Source: a virus. Taken from it: a stretch of 22,603 nucleotides of DNA. Positions 994 through 22,603 of the stretch are shown here, piece by piece. The position numbers and the translations under genes were made by a program. The number at the start of each line of letters is the position of its first letter. The first letter of the stretch is position 1. The stretch is from positions 1 through 22,603 of the IMG/VR virus record IMGVR_UViG_3300030390_001169; one strand, written 5' to 3'. A model generated the notes under the pieces. That model searched no databases. It saw only the letters and a list, made by a program, of their open reading frames with translations, and had not been told where the DNA came from.

Positions 994-1980
994 TTAGTTT
1001 CCTTCCGTGATATTTAATTGTTTTGCATAATCTTCTAGCGGCACACCTAATCTTTTAGCAATTGCTACCTGTGAAGGCGTGAGTTTGACAGTTTTTTTGC
1101 GTCCTGTTGAGGCTGAACGTTTAGCCGAGGCTACATTTTGAACTGGTTTAGTTCTTTCAGTAGAATTATCTTCTATCTTATCAAATTTATGGGGAAATTC
1201 AACTCTTATTCTTTTGTCAACTTCTTCATAATATTCTTCAGATTTAGGGTCATAACCTTCTGATTCTACAAGTCTTTTATGTATATCAAAAGCCGTATAA
1301 GTCATAGCTGAATCGTTACCAAACCAAGCATTTTTAGATGCCCAGTCTTCCGCTCTAGGATCAGTAACTACTGATTGAGTAGATCTTTGAGGATTTATCT
1401 TAACTTCTTTTTCTTGCACAGGTTTCTCTACTCTAGTTTTTAAAGTATTTAAACGTGCGGCATCCATAGTTAAAGTTGCAATTTGTTCTTGCGCTTTAAC
1501 TTGACCTTCCACATCTTGAGCTTCAATAGAAGTTTTTAGTGCTTGTTTAGCTGCAACTAAATTACTTGATACTCTATTTTCAAATTCAGAAACATAGGAT
1601 TTATCTAATTTAGATAATCTTCCTTCTACTTCATCTTTTTGTCTTTTAGTTGATTCAGCAAAAGCTATTGCTTCTTCTTTTTGTCTTTCAGCTTCTCTCA
1701 TTTTACGAGTTAATTTAGCAATACGTCTTTGAACGCCATCACTATATTCTTTTAGCTCATCTTTATCTTCAGATTTTTTTTCAAGTTTAGCTTCTTTTTC
1801 AGAAGATTTATCTTCGTCTTGAGTAGGTTGTTCTACTTTTTCAACTTCGATTTTTTCTTCGATAGGTGCTTCAACTTTTTCTGGTTCACCTTTATCATCT
1901 AAATTAATTTCAGCACCGACTGTTTCGCCGACATCAATTAATTCTTCAGATGGTTTTTTGTTTTCGTTTTCTGTTGGCAT
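994..1980 (-). CDS. Scaffold-like head assembly protein
   Basis: 328 residues. Residues 1-75 are extremely acidic and lysine-rich with low complexity. About 80-190 is predicted long helix or coiled coil (KLTRKMREAERQKEEAIAF). A more conserved-looking segment near 205-265 contains DPRAEDWASKNAWFG and MTYTAFDIHKRLVESEGYDP, and the basic C-terminus carries SASTGRKKTVKLTPSQVAIA followed by a helix. An acidic coiled coil with a basic helix-rich C-terminus is typical of phage scaffolding proteins, whose C-terminus binds capsid protein. Position between portal and probable capsid genes agrees. The start has AGGAAGGAACT upstream. Scaffold identity is inference from architecture, order and remembered homologues. 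Confidence 0.75.
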   Translation of the reverse strand: MPTENENKKPSEELIDVGETVGAEINLDDKGEPEKVEAPIEEKIEVEKVEQPTQDEDKSSEKEAKLEKKSEDKDELKEYSDGVQRRIAKLTRKMREAERQKEEAIAFAESTKRQKDEVEGRLSKLDKSYVSEFENRVSSNLVAAKQALKTSIEAQDVEGQVKAQEQIATLTMDAARLNTLKTRVEKPVQEKEVKINPQRSTQSVVTDPRAEDWASKNAWFGNDSAMTYTAFDIHKRLVESEGYDPKSEEYYEEVDKRIRVEFPHKFDKIEDNSTERTKPVQNVASAKRSASTGRKKTVKLTPSQVAIAKRLGVPLEDYAKQLNITEGN

Positions 1981-1997
1981 AGTTCCTTCCTATGTTG

Positions 1998-2468
1998 TTA
2001 AATGTAATGAAGAACTGATTCAGGATCACCTATGGTCCCTAACACTTCATCATCGTTTAGTATTCGCACTTCTCCGCCTTCTATTGGTAATCTTGCGCCA
2101 GCGTATCTAGCGAACATTACCCAATCTCCTACTTTGCACCAAGGCTCATTAAATTTATCTTTGTCCTTGTATGCAAGATCTCCCATTTTTAAAACATAAC
2201 CACAAGTAGTTGCGATTCTAGCTTTATCTAATTGTTCTTGAGAGAATAAAATTCCGCCTTTAGTTTTTTCTTTTGGTGTAAAAGGTAAAACTAAAAGTCT
2301 ATAGCCGACCGGGTTTGGTAATTGGTCTTCTACTTCTTTAATGTTATTTTCGTCTAATCTTTTTGCGTGAGGTTCTTCTTTTTTCTCTTGCTCGTATTTT
2401 TCTTCAAGTGCCAATTTAATTTTTGGTACTTCCTTTTCCTTTGATGTCGATAACTGTTCCTTGCTCAT
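1998..2468 (-). CDS. GroES-like (Cpn10) co-chaperonin with N-terminal extension
   Basis: 156 residues, against about 95-100 for bacterial GroES. Residues 1-50 are a charged Lys/Glu extension. The Cpn10 domain starts near NPVGYRLLVLPF (52-63), followed by the mobile-loop region KEKTKGGILF (about 67-74) that contacts GroEL, then CGYVLKMG, CKVGDWVMFARYAGARL and EVRILNDDEVLGTI, which match the GroES beta-barrel. It presumably caps the host GroEL to fold capsid protein, as gp31 does in T4. No GroEL is encoded here. AAGGAG lies seven bases before the ATG. Its 5' end overlaps the upstream gene by 53 bases. The family call is firm; the client is inferred from its head-module location. Confidence 0.88.
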   Translation of the reverse strand: MSKEQLSTSKEKEVPKIKLALEEKYEQEKKEEPHAKRLDENNIKEVEDQLPNPVGYRLLVLPFTPKEKTKGGILFSQEQLDKARIATTCGYVLKMGDLAYKDKDKFNEPWCKVGDWVMFARYAGARLPIEGGEVRILNDDEVLGTIGDPESVLHYI

Positions 2469-2658
2469 CTTTTTGCTCCTTTGGTTTTAGCAGGTTAGAG
2501 ATTTCCTGTAATACTATTTGATAGGCTTGTGCCTGACCTAGTAAATACTTGTATTTTTCATAATTGTCAACCCCACCTGTAATCATTGTATCACCTATTT
2601 GTTGTAGGGTAACATTAATTCTTTTTTGTAGCTTGTGTATTATTACTAATTCATCCAT
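2416..2658 (-). CDS. Small conserved helical protein, unknown function
   Basis: 80 residues. The N-terminal 60 (MDELVIIHKLQKRINVTLQQ, then a YKYLLGQAQAYQIVLQEISN segment) look like two amphipathic helices, and the tail is polar and Lys-rich. AAGGAG sits six bases upstream of the ATG. Its last 53 bases overlap the GroES start in another frame, a long overlap even here, so the two must share coding sequence over the tail of one and the disordered head of the other. Small helical dimers of this kind occur in phage head modules, but I know no function for this one. Confidence 0.75.
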   Translation of the reverse strand: MDELVIIHKLQKRINVTLQQIGDTMITGGVDNYEKYKYLLGQAQAYQIVLQEISNLLKPKEQKDEQGTVIDIKGKGSTKN

Positions 2659-2667
2659 CTTCTCTCC

Positions 2668-2868
2668 TTATAATTTAAATTGTTGTAACACTTCTATTTT
2701 CTCTTCAGCATTTGCAATTTTTTCTATTAATTTATCTACTTCATCTATGTGTTGAGGATGTTCTCCTATCCCAACAGAATCTTCTAAATAAATTTTAAGT
2801 GTAGCATCTGCCTCAAGAATTTGAGCTTCGTATCTAGCTTCAAGAGCATCTAATATTGCTGTTCTCAT
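2668..2868 (-). CDS. Small conserved helical protein, unknown function
   Basis: 66 residues, starting MRTAILDALEARYEAQILEA, followed by an acidic loop with GIGEHPQHIDEVDKLI and a C-terminal helix. It is mostly helical and acidic, unlike the very basic genes just upstream. The start codon lies one base after the stop of the upstream 38-residue gene, so translation is probably coupled. Position in the head module suggests a minor assembly role, but no function is known to me. Confidence 0.75.
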   Translation of the reverse strand: MRTAILDALEARYEAQILEADATLKIYLEDSVGIGEHPQHIDEVDKLIEKIANAEEKIEVLQQFKL

Positions 2869-2869
2869 A

Positions 2870-2986
2870 TTATTTTTTTCGGTTAATTACTTTTTTTAAT
2901 ATCTTAGCTTGTCCTGCGTGTAACTTAGAGGCTTTTTTTAAACCTTTAATTACTTTTTTAATCTTTTTCTTTTTACCATTTAACAT
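2870..2986 (-). CDS. Very basic 38-residue protein
   Basis: Short open frame beginning MLNGKKKKIKKVIKGLKKAS and ending KKVINRKK. I count 15 Lys, 1 Arg and no acidic residues. An in-frame ATG at 2992 also exists, but AAGGAG is placed six bases before the ATG at 2986, so I chose the latter. It overlaps the upstream 93-residue gene by seven bases and almost touches the next gene, as expected inside an operon. The core KASKLHAGQAKILKKVI looks like a family I associate with marine phages. Its charge suggests nucleic-acid binding; this is inference. Confidence 0.65.
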   Translation of the reverse strand: MLNGKKKKIKKVIKGLKKASKLHAGQAKILKKVINRKK

Positions 2987-3261
2987 TTCCATCTCCTTCT
3001 AGCCTGACGGATACGAGAATTTGGATCATTTTTAGTTTTTGCAGATGAGCGTTTTAATTGTCCTGCACTTCTAGCACAGTACGACTTACGTCGATTTGCA
3101 GCTTTTGATCCAGATTTTACTTTTCCTGTCACGGCTGTTTTTAGTTTACTTCCAGGGTTTGCGGCTCTGTAAGCTCTTACACCTTTTGCTGTCATTCCAG
3201 CTCCAGATTTTGTTGGTCTATAATTAGCGCTTTTACCTTTTGTAGTTCTTCTTATAGCCAT
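2980..3261 (-). CDS. Basic conserved phage protein (possibly DUF6321-like)
   Basis: 93 residues, very rich in Lys, Arg, Ser and Gly, with only one Asp and no Glu. Recognisable segments are RRTTKGKSANYRPTKSGAGM, AYRAANPGSKLKTAVTGKV, RRKSYCARSAGQLK and the tail DPNSRIRQARRRWKC. This order matches small basic proteins common in marine phages, which I tentatively recall as DUF6321. Function is not established; DNA binding or packaging into the head is plausible from charge and location. The start overlaps the previous stop by one base (TAATG). Confidence 0.8.
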   Translation of the reverse strand: MAIRRTTKGKSANYRPTKSGAGMTAKGVRAYRAANPGSKLKTAVTGKVKSGSKAANRRKSYCARSAGQLKRSSAKTKNDPNSRIRQARRRWKC

Positions 3262-3653
3262 TATAACATACCTTTATAATATTTTTTTAAACTAGGGTTT
3301 CCTACTTTCACACCACCTAAACTACCAGATATATAACTTCCTTTATAATCTCTCTGTGCTTGTTTGATCATAGAGTTACCTACTGATCCACCTTTAGCTT
3401 TTTTATCTCTTTTTGTAAATGTTGAAACGTTGGTTGGTTTACCGCCAGGATTACCGGCTGCTCTTTTTCTGCTGACAGCACTCGCCTTTTGCGAGCTTGA
3501 CATTCGTGTGGCTTTTGCAAGTGGTACGCACTTCGGATATTTTCTTTTTGAAGAACTTGCAGATTTTCTTCCACAAGGTTGATATTTTCCATTCTTCTTT
3601 GGTGCTCCAATATCTACCCATTTTTCATTTACCCATTTCTTTAGATCGCCCAT
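3261..3653 (-). CDS. Basic conserved protein, possibly DUF5872-like, with a GG motif
   Basis: 130 residues. The N-terminal half holds LKKWVNEKWVDIGAPKKNGK, YQPCGRKS and KYPKCVPLAKATRM, a Trp/Cys pattern I tentatively link to DUF5872, seen in phages and large viruses. The second half contains KRAAGNPGGKP, KKAKGGSVGNSM and a Gly/Tyr-rich end, KKYYKGML. Strongly basic. Its start overlaps the upstream stop as TAATG. Two cysteines could bind metal, but there is no complete zinc motif. It is probably a virion or nucleoid-associated protein by neighbourhood; no function is known to me. Confidence 0.78.
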   Translation of the reverse strand: MGDLKKWVNEKWVDIGAPKKNGKYQPCGRKSASSSKRKYPKCVPLAKATRMSSSQKASAVSRKRAAGNPGGKPTNVSTFTKRDKKAKGGSVGNSMIKQAQRDYKGSYISGSLGGVKVGNPSLKKYYKGML

Positions 3654-16969: not shown

Positions 16970-17145
16970 TTGTTTAACCTATCCTCCTTAAATTTTGGAT
17001 ACATTTCTCTATGTCTCCGTGCCACATTTCTGACAAGTTCGTGCCACTTTTCCTTCCACATCTCTTTCATCTCTTTGTTGCCACATTTGTGATAAACATT
17101 TGCTATTTTATCAAGTCTTTTTATTTCTTGTTTTATAGTACTCAT
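16966..17145 (-). CDS. Small basic helical protein, unknown function
   Basis: 59 residues, MSTIKQEIKRLDKIANVYHK then CGNKEMKEMWKEKWHELVRN and VARRHREMYPKFKEDRLNK. Probably two or three charged helices rich in Trp, His and Arg. It has the strongest ribosome site seen here, AAGGAGG before the ATG, which lies inside the 3' end of the exonuclease gene (35-base overlap). Not recognised. Confidence 0.68.
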   Translation of the reverse strand: MSTIKQEIKRLDKIANVYHKCGNKEMKEMWKEKWHELVRNVARRHREMYPKFKEDRLNK

Positions 17146-17800
17146 CGACCCTCCTTAAAAATTTATGTTGATATTGTTGAAATTTTGTCCCTTCTACGAC
17201 AAATTCTTGGTAGTAGTTGTCTTTACTACACATCATTACTACACCTTTAGTAATATTGGTTTTATATATAAAATTGTGCGCCATCGCATAAGCCCCTAGC
17301 TGCAGATAGTAATCCCCGATCCACTCCTCTCGCTTCGGTTTATTCGTTTGTTTAAAATCAACTATCGCATCGCTGCCCTTGTGTACTGCTACGAGATCCG
17401 TTGCCCCTGCATAAAGCCCTGGATAATACAAAGTACATTCAGTTCCATAATATTCACTTAAATTACAAAGCCCTTGTTCAATAACTCTGATGGCCATATT
17501 GTGGGCTTGTTTACCAACATTAGTGAGATCTAAATAACCTTCTTCTAAAATATATTTTTCCAAGATCTTGTGCATCGCCGTTCCACGGTTCGCACTCTCC
17601 GAAGTAATTTTAGCTGCCGCATCTTCACCAACCCTTGCTCGCCAAGCTGCCAAGCTATCTTGTTTTTCCTGTGATTCGGTGGCCTTTAGAATCGTTGTAA
17701 CACTTGGTAACTTTTCTTTATCATTGATATTATAGTGCCTTTGACCTTCTATTCTTTCACGCACCGTCTTTGGGTATATATATTTATTGTTTCTTTTCAT
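17111..17800 (-). CDS. PD-(D/E)XK exonuclease (RecB/Cas4/MGME1-like)
   Basis: 229 residues. LPSVTTILKAT (31-41) leads to the helical SESANRGTAMHKILEKYI with RGTxxH (72-77), then YAGATDLVAVH with Asp 135, AIVDFKQTNK with Asp 148 and Lys 150, and YYLQLGAYAMAHN with Gln 167. This H-D-DxK-Q arrangement is that of single-strand exonucleases of the RecB/Cas4/MGME1 type. In a phage it probably processes DNA ends for recombination or replication. It starts directly at the stop of the PAPS-reductase-like gene. Confidence 0.87.
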   Translation of the reverse strand: MKRNNKYIYPKTVRERIEGQRHYNINDKEKLPSVTTILKATESQEKQDSLAAWRARVGEDAAAKITSESANRGTAMHKILEKYILEEGYLDLTNVGKQAHNMAIRVIEQGLCNLSEYYGTECTLYYPGLYAGATDLVAVHKGSDAIVDFKQTNKPKREEWIGDYYLQLGAYAMAHNFIYKTNITKGVVMMCSKDNYYQEFVVEGTKFQQYQHKFLRRVDEYYKTRNKKT

Positions 17801-18637
17801 CTAATTTCCACACATCCCTTCACATTCCGATTGAAATAAATCTAATTGGTTATCTTTATTTTTAGTAAAATCAACTTGATCAATAGGTATCCCCTCACGA
17901 TGTAAGAACAATTCATCTAATACTTCAGTAGAATCTTTATGTTTTGCTTTGTGTCTTTCTTGATGTCTTATAGCTTTATCCATTGCAACAACCTCATCCC
18001 ATTCTTCTTTGTTTTTTTTAATTTCAATCCATTCTTTATTAGAGTGATAAGGGCAAAAAGTACAGGCAGATCTTGGAGGTTTAGGGTATTTAAAATCTTT
18101 CATCCAAGTTAGACAATCAGTCCTAGTCATTTTTAAATCTACTAAAGGATAGACATTGGTTATATATTTTAATCTATTTGTTTTTATTCTAAAAACTTCA
18201 TCTTTAGAAATACCCATTAACATTTCAACCTCGGTTCCTTTTTTTCTTTTTTCACCTTTTTCTAATCCTAATAATTTTCTTACTTGTTGAACTACAGGAC
18301 CTATTTTATACATATTTGTGCATTGACGACGGAGTAATCCTTTTTTACCAGTTACGGGATTTTTTGTAAAAAAAGGTGCAGTAAAAGCGGTGTATTTACC
18401 TTCAGCTGCATCTAATATATCTTGTTTTAAATCTCTCCAAGTTACTCGATACACAGGATAGGATAATTGTTTTTCTAACCAATCAAGATGTGTATACACA
18501 GCTTTAGGCTCTCCCTTTACATCAGCAAATACAGCTCCATCTACCATTGGTACTTCTCCTTTTTCAATCATCAAAGCTAATGTTGAACTTTGCACACCTG
18601 CTCCTAAAGATAGTATTCTTAAATTATTTTTTTTCAT
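17801..18637 (-). CDS. PAPS-reductase-like PP-loop ATPase with cysteine cluster
   Basis: 278 residues. The N-terminal ILSLGAGVQSSTLALMIEKG (8-27) is the PP-loop of the adenine nucleotide alpha-hydrolase superfamily. RRQCTNMYKIGPV (Cys 106) resembles the CT-x-x-x-K-x-x-P segment of PAPS reductases. SACTFCPYHSNKEW (Cys 192, Cys 195) and Cys 272/276 near the end could ligate iron-sulfur or zinc. Such enzymes adenylate a substrate for sulfur or nitrogen chemistry; DndC-like DNA phosphorothioation, base modification and true PAPS reduction are all possible. Location between a DNA methyltransferase and an exonuclease favours a nucleic-acid role by inference. Start overlaps the lipoprotein stop by ATGA. 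Confidence 0.85.
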   Translation of the reverse strand: MKKNNLRILSLGAGVQSSTLALMIEKGEVPMVDGAVFADVKGEPKAVYTHLDWLEKQLSYPVYRVTWRDLKQDILDAAEGKYTAFTAPFFTKNPVTGKKGLLRRQCTNMYKIGPVVQQVRKLLGLEKGEKRKKGTEVEMLMGISKDEVFRIKTNRLKYITNVYPLVDLKMTRTDCLTWMKDFKYPKPPRSACTFCPYHSNKEWIEIKKNKEEWDEVVAMDKAIRHQERHKAKHKDSTEVLDELFLHREGIPIDQVDFTKNKDNQLDLFQSECEGMCGN

Positions 18638-18753: not shown

Positions 18754-18950
18754 ACTTTTCTCCTTCTTCCAAATAGTGTTCTCCAAAACCAGCTTCGGCA
18801 TATTGATATTGCCGTAAAGATAACTGCGATATGAAAACTCTCAAGAACTGTTGGGTACATATCAAAGAACGGAAATATAAATAACTGTATCATTGTCGAT
18901 AGAATTAATCCACTACCGACATCGATACACGTTTCAAATAAATTTCTCAC
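18750..18950 (-). CDS. Two-helix membrane protein (possibly DUF7220-like)
   Basis: 66 residues from a GTG at 18950 that overlaps the methyltransferase stop (GTGA). It reads MRNLFETCIDVGSGLILSTM, then IQLFIFPFFDMYP and ESFHIAVIFTAISICRSWFW with a basic end, RTLFGRRRKV. Two membrane helices (about 12-30 and 39-56). The pattern matches small membrane proteins common in cyanophages and marine phages, which I tentatively recall as DUF7220. Function unknown. It is immediately followed by the small lipoprotein, so the pair may work in the envelope. Confidence 0.72.
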   Translation of the reverse strand: MRNLFETCIDVGSGLILSTMIQLFIFPFFDMYPTVLESFHIAVIFTAISICRSWFWRTLFGRRRKV

Positions 18951-20071
18951 TTCATCGCCTTTACGATTGCATATCCTATTTCTTCGACGATTTGCGGGAC
19001 GATAGAATTGCCCAATCCTCTAAGTCGGTGTACTCTGCCGGATACCCCATTAGCCACTCGACCCACGTTGGGTTCAACGCTCCACCACCCTTGATCCAAG
19101 TTTCCTTGTCGCTCTTCGCTACTGCTTGTGGAAGAAGATGTCTCGTTGAATTGACTACGGCTTTGCCTGAATCCTTCCAATCTCTCGCTGTTGGTGTCGG
19201 CCATTTCTGAACTGCTGCCGTCAAATTGTGTTGAACTGCTGCCTTCTCTCCCTTGCGTTTGATCAGAGTGTCTAAATTTTCTTGTCCTGATGCTCTCGGT
19301 GTCGGCCACATCTTCACTGCTTTGCTTAATCCTGCTCCGTTGCCCGTCTTTGGGTTGATTCCACTTCGTTCCGTTGCTGTTGGCGTCGGCCACATCTTTT
19401 GTTTCTCCTCGAATAGAACTGCGTCCGATAGTTTCGCTCCGAAGGTGTTCTCTGGCTTGTTCTTCTTCCTTAAAATGTAAGACCCCTTCTCCGTTTTCTC
19501 TACTCGGTTCGACTGTTCTCCCCCCTCTATGCAACCCACTGTTGGTGTTGGCCATATCTGATCTGACTGCGATGAACCAGATTCTTTTTCTTTGGTGCGG
19601 AGCACCGACGGCTGCAGCTGGAATATTGAACGGTTGGACTTCGTATCCTTCGTCTTCCAAGTTAGTGCACACAGTCTCGAAGACCACGCCGTCTTGGATG
19701 TTAACAATTCCCGGCACATTTTCGCCAATAACGAATTTTGGTTGGAATACCTTGATAATGCGAAACATTTCTGGCCAGAGATGTCTGTCGTCATCTGTTC
19801 CTTTTTGTTTGCCCGCAACTGAGAACGGTTGGCAAGGGAAACCCCCTGTAATGATGTCTGGAGTTTCAATTCCATCTGTTTCAAAGTTTTCTTTGGTGAT
19901 CGCTCTGACGTCGTCATATATTTTTATTCCTTTCCAATGTTTATCTAATATTAATTTACTGAACTTATTGTTGTCACAAAAAGCTACAGTTTTAAAATGT
20001 CCTGTTCTCTCTAGTCCTAAACTAAATCCACCTAGTCCACTAAAGAGATCTAATACCTTTAATTTCTTCAT
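18947..20071 (-). CDS. dcm: DNA cytosine-5 methyltransferase
   Basis: 374 residues. Motif I DLFSGLGGFSLGLE (8-21), motif IV GGFPCQPFS with catalytic Cys 80, motif VI ENVPG (117-121), motif VIII PHQRKRIWFIA (158-168), and motifs IX-X in RLRGLGNSIVPQI (349-361). The variable region (170-330) is low complexity with four related repeats: MANTNS (173), VADANS (227), VADTES (255), MADTNS (290). WWSVEPNVGRVANGV follows. It methylates C5 of cytosine in a short target, probably guarding phage DNA against host restriction. GAGGAG precedes the ATG. A 313-codon second frame lies inside it. Confidence 0.95.
   Translation of the reverse strand: MKKLKVLDLFSGLGGFSLGLERTGHFKTVAFCDNNKFSKLILDKHWKGIKIYDDVRAITKENFETDGIETPDIITGGFPCQPFSVAGKQKGTDDDRHLWPEMFRIIKVFQPKFVIGENVPGIVNIQDGVVFETVCTNLEDEGYEVQPFNIPAAAVGAPHQRKRIWFIAVRSDMANTNSGLHRGGRTVEPSRENGEGVLHFKEEEQAREHLRSETIGRSSIRGETKDVADANSNGTKWNQPKDGQRSRIKQSSEDVADTESIRTRKFRHSDQTQGREGSSSTQFDGSSSEMADTNSERLEGFRQSRSQFNETSSSTSSSEERQGNLDQGWWSVEPNVGRVANGVSGRVHRLRGLGNSIVPQIVEEIGYAIVKAMK
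18976..19917 (-). CDS. Overlapping second-frame ORF with WPTPT repeats, nested in the methyltransferase gene
   Basis: 313 codons on the same strand as dcm in another frame. WPTP occurs at residues 122, 176, 204 and 239, spaced like the dcm-frame VADTNS repeats because the same DNA encodes both. Upstream is TSKTAWSSRLCALTWKTK and near the end LNPTWVEWLMGYPAEYTDLE. I recall both features in proteins encoded next to, or annotated as, phage methyltransferases (the NPxWVEWLMG and WPTPTA motifs), so the frame probably codes. No clear ribosome site: candidate starts are 19917, Met 42 and Met 67, or a frameshift from dcm. Its function may be target recognition or an accessory role. Expression is unproven. 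Confidence 0.5.
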   Translation of the reverse strand: MTTSERSPKKTLKQMELKLQTSLQGVSLANRSQLRANKKEQMTTDISGQKCFALSRYSNQNSLLAKMCRELLTSKTAWSSRLCALTWKTKDTKSNRSIFQLQPSVLRTKEKESGSSQSDQIWPTPTVGCIEGGEQSNRVEKTEKGSYILRKKNKPENTFGAKLSDAVLFEEKQKMWPTPTATERSGINPKTGNGAGLSKAVKMWPTPRASGQENLDTLIKRKGEKAAVQHNLTAAVQKWPTPTARDWKDSGKAVVNSTRHLLPQAVAKSDKETWIKGGGALNPTWVEWLMGYPAEYTDLEDWAILSSRKSSKK

Positions 20072-22432: not shown

Positions 22433-22603
22433 TTACCTATTTAAATCCTTAATATCATAACTGTGTTCTCTAACTTGATCTGCTAGTTGTCTATATAAAT
22501 TCTCTGCCATCTGCCACGTAGATTCAGCAGAAGTTAATCTTGTGTTTTGATCTGTAAGTTTTTCTTGTGCAACTTTTAAATCTCTTTGAAGATTTACTAT
22601 TTG
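22433..22603 (-). CDS. C-terminal end of a coiled-coil protein (partial)
   Basis: Open frame of 56 codons plus stop that enters from the right edge, with the N-terminus outside the window. The visible part is helical, with heptad-like QIVNLQRDLKVAQEKLTDQN, LTSAESTWQMAENLYRQLAD and HSYDIKDLNR. It lies just upstream of the exported protein on the same strand. A coiled-coil tail would suit a spanin, a tail protein or a membrane-anchored regulator; the missing N-terminus prevents a choice. Confidence 0.65.
   Translation of the reverse strand, partial: QIVNLQRDLKVAQEKLTDQNTRLTSAESTWQMAENLYRQLADQVREHSYDIKDLNR

Follow-up and report, generated by a model that had tools for sequence, protein, structure and literature searches.

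Two constrained reading frames in a phage cytosine methyltransferase gene: a catalytic protein and a nested, putative recognition subunit built of shuffled cassettes

Can a single stretch of phage DNA specify two proteins from two frames of the same strand, both maintained by selection, and if so, what would the second protein do? The question is raised by a methyltransferase locus in a 30.7-kb virus record (IMGVR_UViG_3300030390_001169) that also carries genes for the terminase large subunit, the portal and other phage proteins. The window analysed here is the stretch from position 1 to position 22,603 of that record (22,603 nt). An earlier note, made from the letters and their open reading frames, had described repeats in both frames of this gene, and suggested that selection may act on both and that the second product could be either a target-recognition partner of the methyltransferase or a frameshifted isoform.

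Two nested reading frames

The two open reading frames, hereafter alpha and beta, lie on the same strand.

18947..20071, (-) strand: alpha subunit ORF, 374 aa, C5-cytosine methyltransferase with motifs I-VIII and X
18976..19917, (-) strand: proposed beta subunit ORF, 313 aa, +1 frame, nested in alpha

Every feature of the dual-frame repeats given in the earlier note was confirmed, beginning with the 313-codon ORF inside the 374-codon methyltransferase ORF. Residue n+51 of alpha overlaps residue n of beta. The MADTNS-like repeats of alpha, matching [VM]A[DN][TA][NE]S, start at residues 173, 227, 255 and 290, and WPTP starts at beta residues 122, 176, 204 and 239; the VADTNS repeats of the one protein and the WPTPT repeats of the other are the same DNA read in frames offset by a single base. 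Near the end of the overlap, LNPTWVEWLMGYP occupies beta residues 281-293, and WWSVEPNVGRVANG begins at residue 329 in the alpha frame.

Both frames are kept open

The synonymous codons of the alpha frame were permuted, keeping the protein and its codon usage, and the resulting stops in beta were counted. For the window gene (L162 in the set of homologous loci), 300 such shuffles gave a mean of 9.6 beta stops and a minimum of four, against an observed number of zero. Beta was open for 220-530 codons at all 119 homologous loci (mean overlap 318 codons, about 9.7 stops expected), and at 118 of these no shuffle was open. The overlap in this test was the open stretch itself; fixed alignment segments were used instead for a set of 87 non-redundant loci, where alpha residues 73-289 contained no beta stops against about 570 expected. 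By segment, the expected numbers across this region were 56, 54, 197, 57, 130 and 75, and the observed number was zero in each. Over alpha residues 1-40 of the same 87 loci, beta stops were above expectation and few loci were open, and stops were common over residues 1-63. Their frequency at the N-terminal end and absence further on indicate that throughout the family the open second frame begins around residue 52-64. Shuffling of the beta frame gave the converse result: over alpha residues 173-328, no alpha stops were present in 115 loci, against 5.2 expected per locus. Homologues with stops in the second frame, which would have spoken against the dual-coding proposal, were therefore not found over the core.

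Constraint passes from one frame to the other

With the offset between the frames, alpha codon position 3 is beta position 2, and beta position 3 is alpha position 1. The ratio of third- to first-position variation was 2.41 at alpha residues 1-52 (loci found with the alpha protein only) and close to 1 (0.92-1.05) at residues 113-150, where beta identity is 0.92-0.94, indicating that both frames are held there. The ratio was reversed at residues 173-345 (0.35-0.64 by segment) and returned to 2.1-2.43 at residues 346-374. As a control for ascertainment through the beta protein, the profile was recomputed for the loci that the alpha protein alone had retrieved, and the outcome was unchanged, the ratio at residues 173-345 being 0.69 (95% 0.54-0.83).

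Substitutions were also counted in both frames at once in 29 closely related pairs. Per 1000 weighted sites, alpha-nonsynonymous, beta-nonsynonymous and double-synonymous rates were 7.2, 39.7 and 40.2 at residues 1-52, and 53.2, 13.6 and 56.7 at residues 173-345; the double-synonymous class is small (12 and 18 changes), making ratios to that class approximate, while the contrast between alpha and beta is large. In alpha numbering, constraint is on alpha alone at residues 1-112, on both frames at 113-172, on beta alone at 173-345, and on alpha alone again at 346-374. Purifying selection thus acts on both of these same-strand nested genes, and the suggestion of selection in both frames is borne out by openness and substitution profiles alike. 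Between residues 173 and 345 beta is the protein, and alpha is constrained mainly against stops; far from synonymous variation in alpha freely breaking the second frame, beta is the more conserved of the two.

These data bear on the simplest explanation, that only the methyltransferase frame is coding and the second is open through codon bias and conserved amino acids. Residues 1-112, under alpha-only constraint, behave as it predicts. It was nonetheless rejected as a codon-bias artefact, and we give it almost no weight: shuffles that preserve codon usage predict stops, the two-frame substitution profile is reversed at residues 173-345, and in some homologues (L139 and L150, see below) beta stays open past the alpha stop.

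Alpha has a catalytic domain, a linker and motif X

Three parts can be distinguished in alpha.

19556..20071, (-) strand: alpha residues 1-172, catalytic domain, motifs I-VIII (GGFPCQPF, GENV, QRKRIW)
19055..19552, (-) strand: alpha residues 174-339, VADTNS-repeat linker, kept open, amino acids near neutral
18953..19036, (-) strand: alpha residues 346-373, motif X helix (GRVHRLRGLGNSIVPQI), modelled by AF2 as a helix with good confidence

Alpha matches phrog_363 (E=9e-78) and the Pfam family DNA_methylase (PF00145, E=1.1e-51), the latter over profile positions 1-288 of 324 only. The motifs that define PF00145 enzymes, I-VIII with the catalytic PCQ and the SAM-binding fold, are present, but the chain does not also contain a recognition domain and motif IX; the absence of motif IX follows from the end of the Pfam match at position 288. 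Residues 1-172 align in sequence with residues 12-176 of M.HhaI. In the AF2 model their pLDDT is mostly about 85-98, with low values confined to 80-87 and 121-128, and Foldseek matched the catalytic domain to M.HaeIII and M.HhaI with E of about 1e-15 over some 170-175 columns.

The model divides alpha sharply into structured and disordered parts. Residues 174-339 have a pLDDT of 32-43 and no secondary structure, and are predicted to form a disordered linker. The alpha-nonsynonymous rate in the linker is about equal to the double-synonymous rate, and the substitution pattern becomes alpha-dominated again in the motif X region.

Beta has its own start region

The following features belong to the start and the N-terminal part of beta.

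19917, (-) strand: ATG, candidate beta start (alternative ATG at 19794)
19928..19931, (-) strand: Shine-Dalgarno-like AGGA, 10 nt upstream of the ATG at 19917
19603..19737, (-) strand: beta residues 61-105, conserved N-terminal element, modelled as a helix and beta hairpin, constrained in both frames

Among homologues, the candidate starts are an ATG near alpha residue 52-59 or one at residue 93/94, and 68 of 87 loci have a beta ATG with an SD-like sequence. The beta frame contains stops upstream of its start region. These observations bear on the second proposal of the earlier note, a frameshifted isoform, which in its explicit form is a programmed frameshift after motif VIII, giving a fusion of motifs I-VIII with the recognition region and motif IX, and no free beta. 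Beta is open throughout the region of any possible shift, and such a fusion would set recognition and motif IX beside the catalytic domain. Such a product would have no need of the beta constraint at alpha residues 113-150, nor of the lack of stops at residues 73-112, and the ATG with its SD-like sequence speaks for initiation within the gene. Given beta's own start region, the stops upstream and the selection on beta before motif VIII has been passed, we regard the frameshift as improbable and a separately initiated beta as the better reading.

Beta matches phrog_1008 (E=2e-30); no methyltransferase was found with it when Pfam, NCBIfam and PDB sequences were searched by profile methods. As a single chain it is modelled poorly by AF2 (mean pLDDT 55), with local values of about 60-82 in the N-terminal element; this may mean that beta needs alpha, or that the alignment is too shallow.

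Beta carries a putative motif IX

19039..19077, (-) strand: beta LNPTWVEWLMGYP, assigned as C5-methyltransferase motif IX, missing from alpha

The consensus of this element in betas is LNPxWVEWLMGYP. Its identification as motif IX comes mainly from one record, locus L164 on a plasmid of Candidatus Megaera polyxenophila, together with its position. At L164 the same motif immediately precedes motif X in the alpha frame (LNPDWVEWLMGYPISWTDGGSRMQRLQSLGNAVVP), and the Pfam match reaches position 322. This segment aligns with M.HhaI residues 268-314 (LHPRECARVMGYP, LHPRECARVMGYPDSYKVHPSTSQAYKQFGNSVV), and in both proteins the first leucine and the motif X glycine are 29 residues apart; the alignment and equal spacing identify the beta consensus as a probable motif IX. 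A direct comparison of an HMM of the beta motif with M.HhaI scored weakly (5.7 bits): every scored shuffle fell below this, but not every random window did. In nested loci with motifs IX and X on different chains, the two lie 22 codons apart in 254 of 272 cases.

Beta contains shuffled cassettes

Ahead of the putative motif IX, the beta protein of the window is divided into four cassettes.

19393..19554, (-) strand: beta cassette 1 (family T15), putative target-recognition module
19309..19392, (-) strand: beta cassette 2 (family T17), putative target-recognition module
19204..19308, (-) strand: beta cassette 3 (family T4), putative target-recognition module, local AF2 pLDDT up to 95
19078..19203, (-) strand: beta cassette 4 (family T9), putative target-recognition module

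Each beta has 2-7 such cassettes, all opening with W-x-T-P. The 433 cassettes of the 110 betas with motif IX fall into 71 similarity families and 87 architectures, and family T1 was found with 12 different right-hand neighbours, the largest number. The order in the window is T15-T17-T4-T9, while close relatives have T6-T15-T4-T9 (L085) and T6-T20-T4-T9 (L086), and L094 has T2-T22-T20-T4-T9. Tandem target-recognising domains are the mark of multispecific C5-methyltransferases, and the window has four WxTP cassettes in tandem, of kinds that are shuffled between loci.

In M.HhaI-type enzymes, motif IX directly follows the target-recognition domain. From their place before motif IX, modularity, hypervariability and number, and by comparison with the multispecific methyltransferases of Bacillus phages, we infer that the cassettes are target-recognition domains, each possibly with a DNA target of its own.

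A larger cassette of about 145 aa (T22 and its relatives), with a helix-turn-helix-like segment (TTIEHWFRRDKAGFSHPSIEDW), occurs in the betas of L094, L116, L030, L108, L038 and L141. The T22 segment shows weak similarity to a family of DNA-binding proteins from phages (phrog_4151, E=7e-4) and to Pfam HTH_28 (E=0.012). Read in the alpha frame, the DNA of these cassettes gives low-complexity hydrophilic sequence. At L150, a T22-type cassette with the HTH-like segment is placed after motif IX.

Natural variants move motifs between the frames

The standard layout, with motif IX in the +1 frame, motif X in frame 0 and both frames open, was found at about 210 scanned loci; a second scan of bacterial and further viral loci gave 136, the bacterial loci being common to both scans. 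Three loci differ in a manner resembling AquI (L198, nt 2197-3496; L220, nt 2017-3214; L238, nt 1633-3175). Their beta carries cassettes, motif IX and motif X, and alpha ends after motif VIII. The former linker frame holds 7-11 stops in these loci, from which it follows that the linker is open only where motif X must be reached. These loci are possible evolutionary intermediates toward the nested form.

At L139 (nt 2062-2161), L150 (nt 1607-2030), L140 and L151, beta extends past the alpha stop. Betas of the L139/L150 type carry an extra W-x-T-P cassette beyond motif IX, outside the overlap, and at L150 the alpha frame has 17 stops within the 141 codons that follow its own stop.

The switching of motif IX or X from one frame to the other supports the reading of alpha and beta as two complementary subunits, and is pertinent to a further alternative, in which beta is a nested protein with another task (an inhibitor, a regulator or some other partner) and alpha alone is a complete methyltransferase. 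While a beta with no recognisable fold and no curated family of known role would suit that alternative, an alpha without motif IX, in which a linker predicted to be disordered takes up the site of the recognition domain, would not, and nor would variants that shift motif IX or X between the frames. We consider it unlikely, marginally more so than the frameshift. The target-recognition partner of the earlier note, by comparison, is supported by the motif partition, the constraint profile and the frame-switching variants, and complementary subunits are the reading followed below.

Three other loci show altered arrangements. L163 (Bacteroides finegoldii plasmid NZ_OY725938, nt 865-1981) has an intact beta and a stop in the alpha linker at nt 1435-1437, splitting alpha between motifs VIII and X; the gene may have decayed, or the enzyme may be divided here in yet a third manner. 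In Paenibacillus macquariensis (L236, nt 2149-3158), the alpha frame holds a beta-type motif IX and the third frame holds motif X, which looks like the result of indels or decay in the overlap. In L001 (KT997847, nt 1348-2184), an annotated N-terminal methyltransferase fragment is followed by the beta frame, annotated as 'putative cytosine-specific methyltransferase'; a sequencing error or a mutation has shifted its alpha frame early on.

The nested arrangement was found in at least 593 confirmed viral stretches and in 332 stretches in genomes of bacterial species. Conservation of the overlap, about 0.7-1.6 kb long, extends over hundreds of phage contigs and over bacteria from many phyla. Paenibacillus phage Tadhana and Escherichia phage K1ind3 have the two frames annotated as overlapping genes; in the latter, ORF29 ('putative Mte8-like protein') is nested in ORF30. 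PHROG has both families, phrog_1008 for beta and phrog_363 for alpha. These annotations give the nested gene no role, or call both frames simply 'DNA methyltransferase'.

A candidate two-subunit methyltransferase

The locus very probably encodes a heterodimeric C5-cytosine methyltransferase whose subunits are read one base apart from the same DNA, with a catalytic alpha and a beta that holds the recognition array and motif IX. Alpha would bind SAM, flip out the cytosine and methylate it (motifs I-VIII), and would contribute motif X; the sequence of its predicted disordered linker between motifs VIII and X would hardly matter as long as it is free of stops. Beta, expressed from its internal start, would supply motif IX and, in tandem, the target-recognition modules, of which the window has four, each beginning W-P-T-P. 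By docking on alpha, it would take the place of the small DNA-recognition domain that alpha lacks, with the cassettes reading the DNA, and motif IX from beta and motif X from alpha would together complete the enzyme. Gain, loss and reshuffling of cassettes between phages would then change the methylated targets or add to them. Among the window ORFs examined, none was recognised as coding for a restriction enzyme, which makes evasion of host restriction, with several specificities, the probable use.

In M.EcoHK31I, too, the small subunit is reportedly read from an overlapping alternative frame, and if so, nested frames of this kind have been known since 1995. Of the two polypeptides of that enzyme (YGGCCR; Lee, Kam and Shaw 1995), the large one has motifs I-VIII and X and the small one motif IX, and the target-recognition domain is predicted in the large subunit (PMC3404938). 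By this description, the window gene has the same division of motifs, alpha carrying I-VIII and X and beta carrying IX, and shares this layout with more than 200 loci; it differs in that the recognition modules are apparently in beta, as 2-7 cassettes, and the corresponding stretch of alpha is an apparent linker. M.AquI (CYCGRG) likewise has alpha and beta chains; its small chain holds both motif IX and motif X, and each chain has a part of the variable region (PMC3404938). It resembles the proposed window enzyme as a C5-methyltransferase in two chains with the recognition region and motif IX (partly) in the second, but motif X stays in alpha in the window; motifs IX and X are together on beta in L198, L220 and L238.

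The Bacillus phages SPR, phi3T, rho11 and H2 have multispecific C5-methyltransferases (literature cited in PMC8936443 and PMC12707154). Like these, the window gene encodes an orphan C5-methyltransferase of a phage, for which a tandem array of putative target-recognising domains was found; unlike these single polypeptides, it has its array on a separate, proposed subunit in another frame. Literature searches for this dual coding in an open library returned only the EcoHK31I and AquI precedents and general surveys of overlaps.

What appears to be new is that target recognition apparently lies in beta, that the cassettes are shuffled, and that the arrangement is so widely distributed among phages and bacteria. 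We think it reasonably likely that these loci represent a very large unrecognised class, in which a specificity subunit is hidden in the +1 frame as an evolvable array of cassettes, and specificity evolves almost independently of a catalytic frame that is merely kept open. A survey of 338 prokaryotic genomes found no real co-directional overlap longer than 60 bp (PMC2478687), against which this co-directional nested overlap stands out; selection on it can be measured in each frame codon by codon. Annotation of one frame misses the likely specificity half of hundreds of such enzymes; many methyltransferases annotated in a single frame would have the wrong recognition domain or none, and prediction of their target sites from the annotated protein should fail. 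The cassette families could serve directly as interchangeable parts with which to study methylation specificity and to reassign it, and a route from a one-chain to a two-chain enzyme is visible in those variants that have motif IX or X in the other frame.

Neighbouring genes

A PAPS-reductase-like gene (phrog_424; 17801-18637, (-) strand) adjoins the methyltransferase, and a PD-(D/E)XK exonuclease gene (phrog_298; 17111-17800, (-) strand) lies nearby. Elsewhere in the window, near the structural genes, positions 1998-2468 ((-) strand) encode a phage GroES-like co-chaperonin (Pfam Cpn10, E=7e-11; phrog_3188, E=1e-17).
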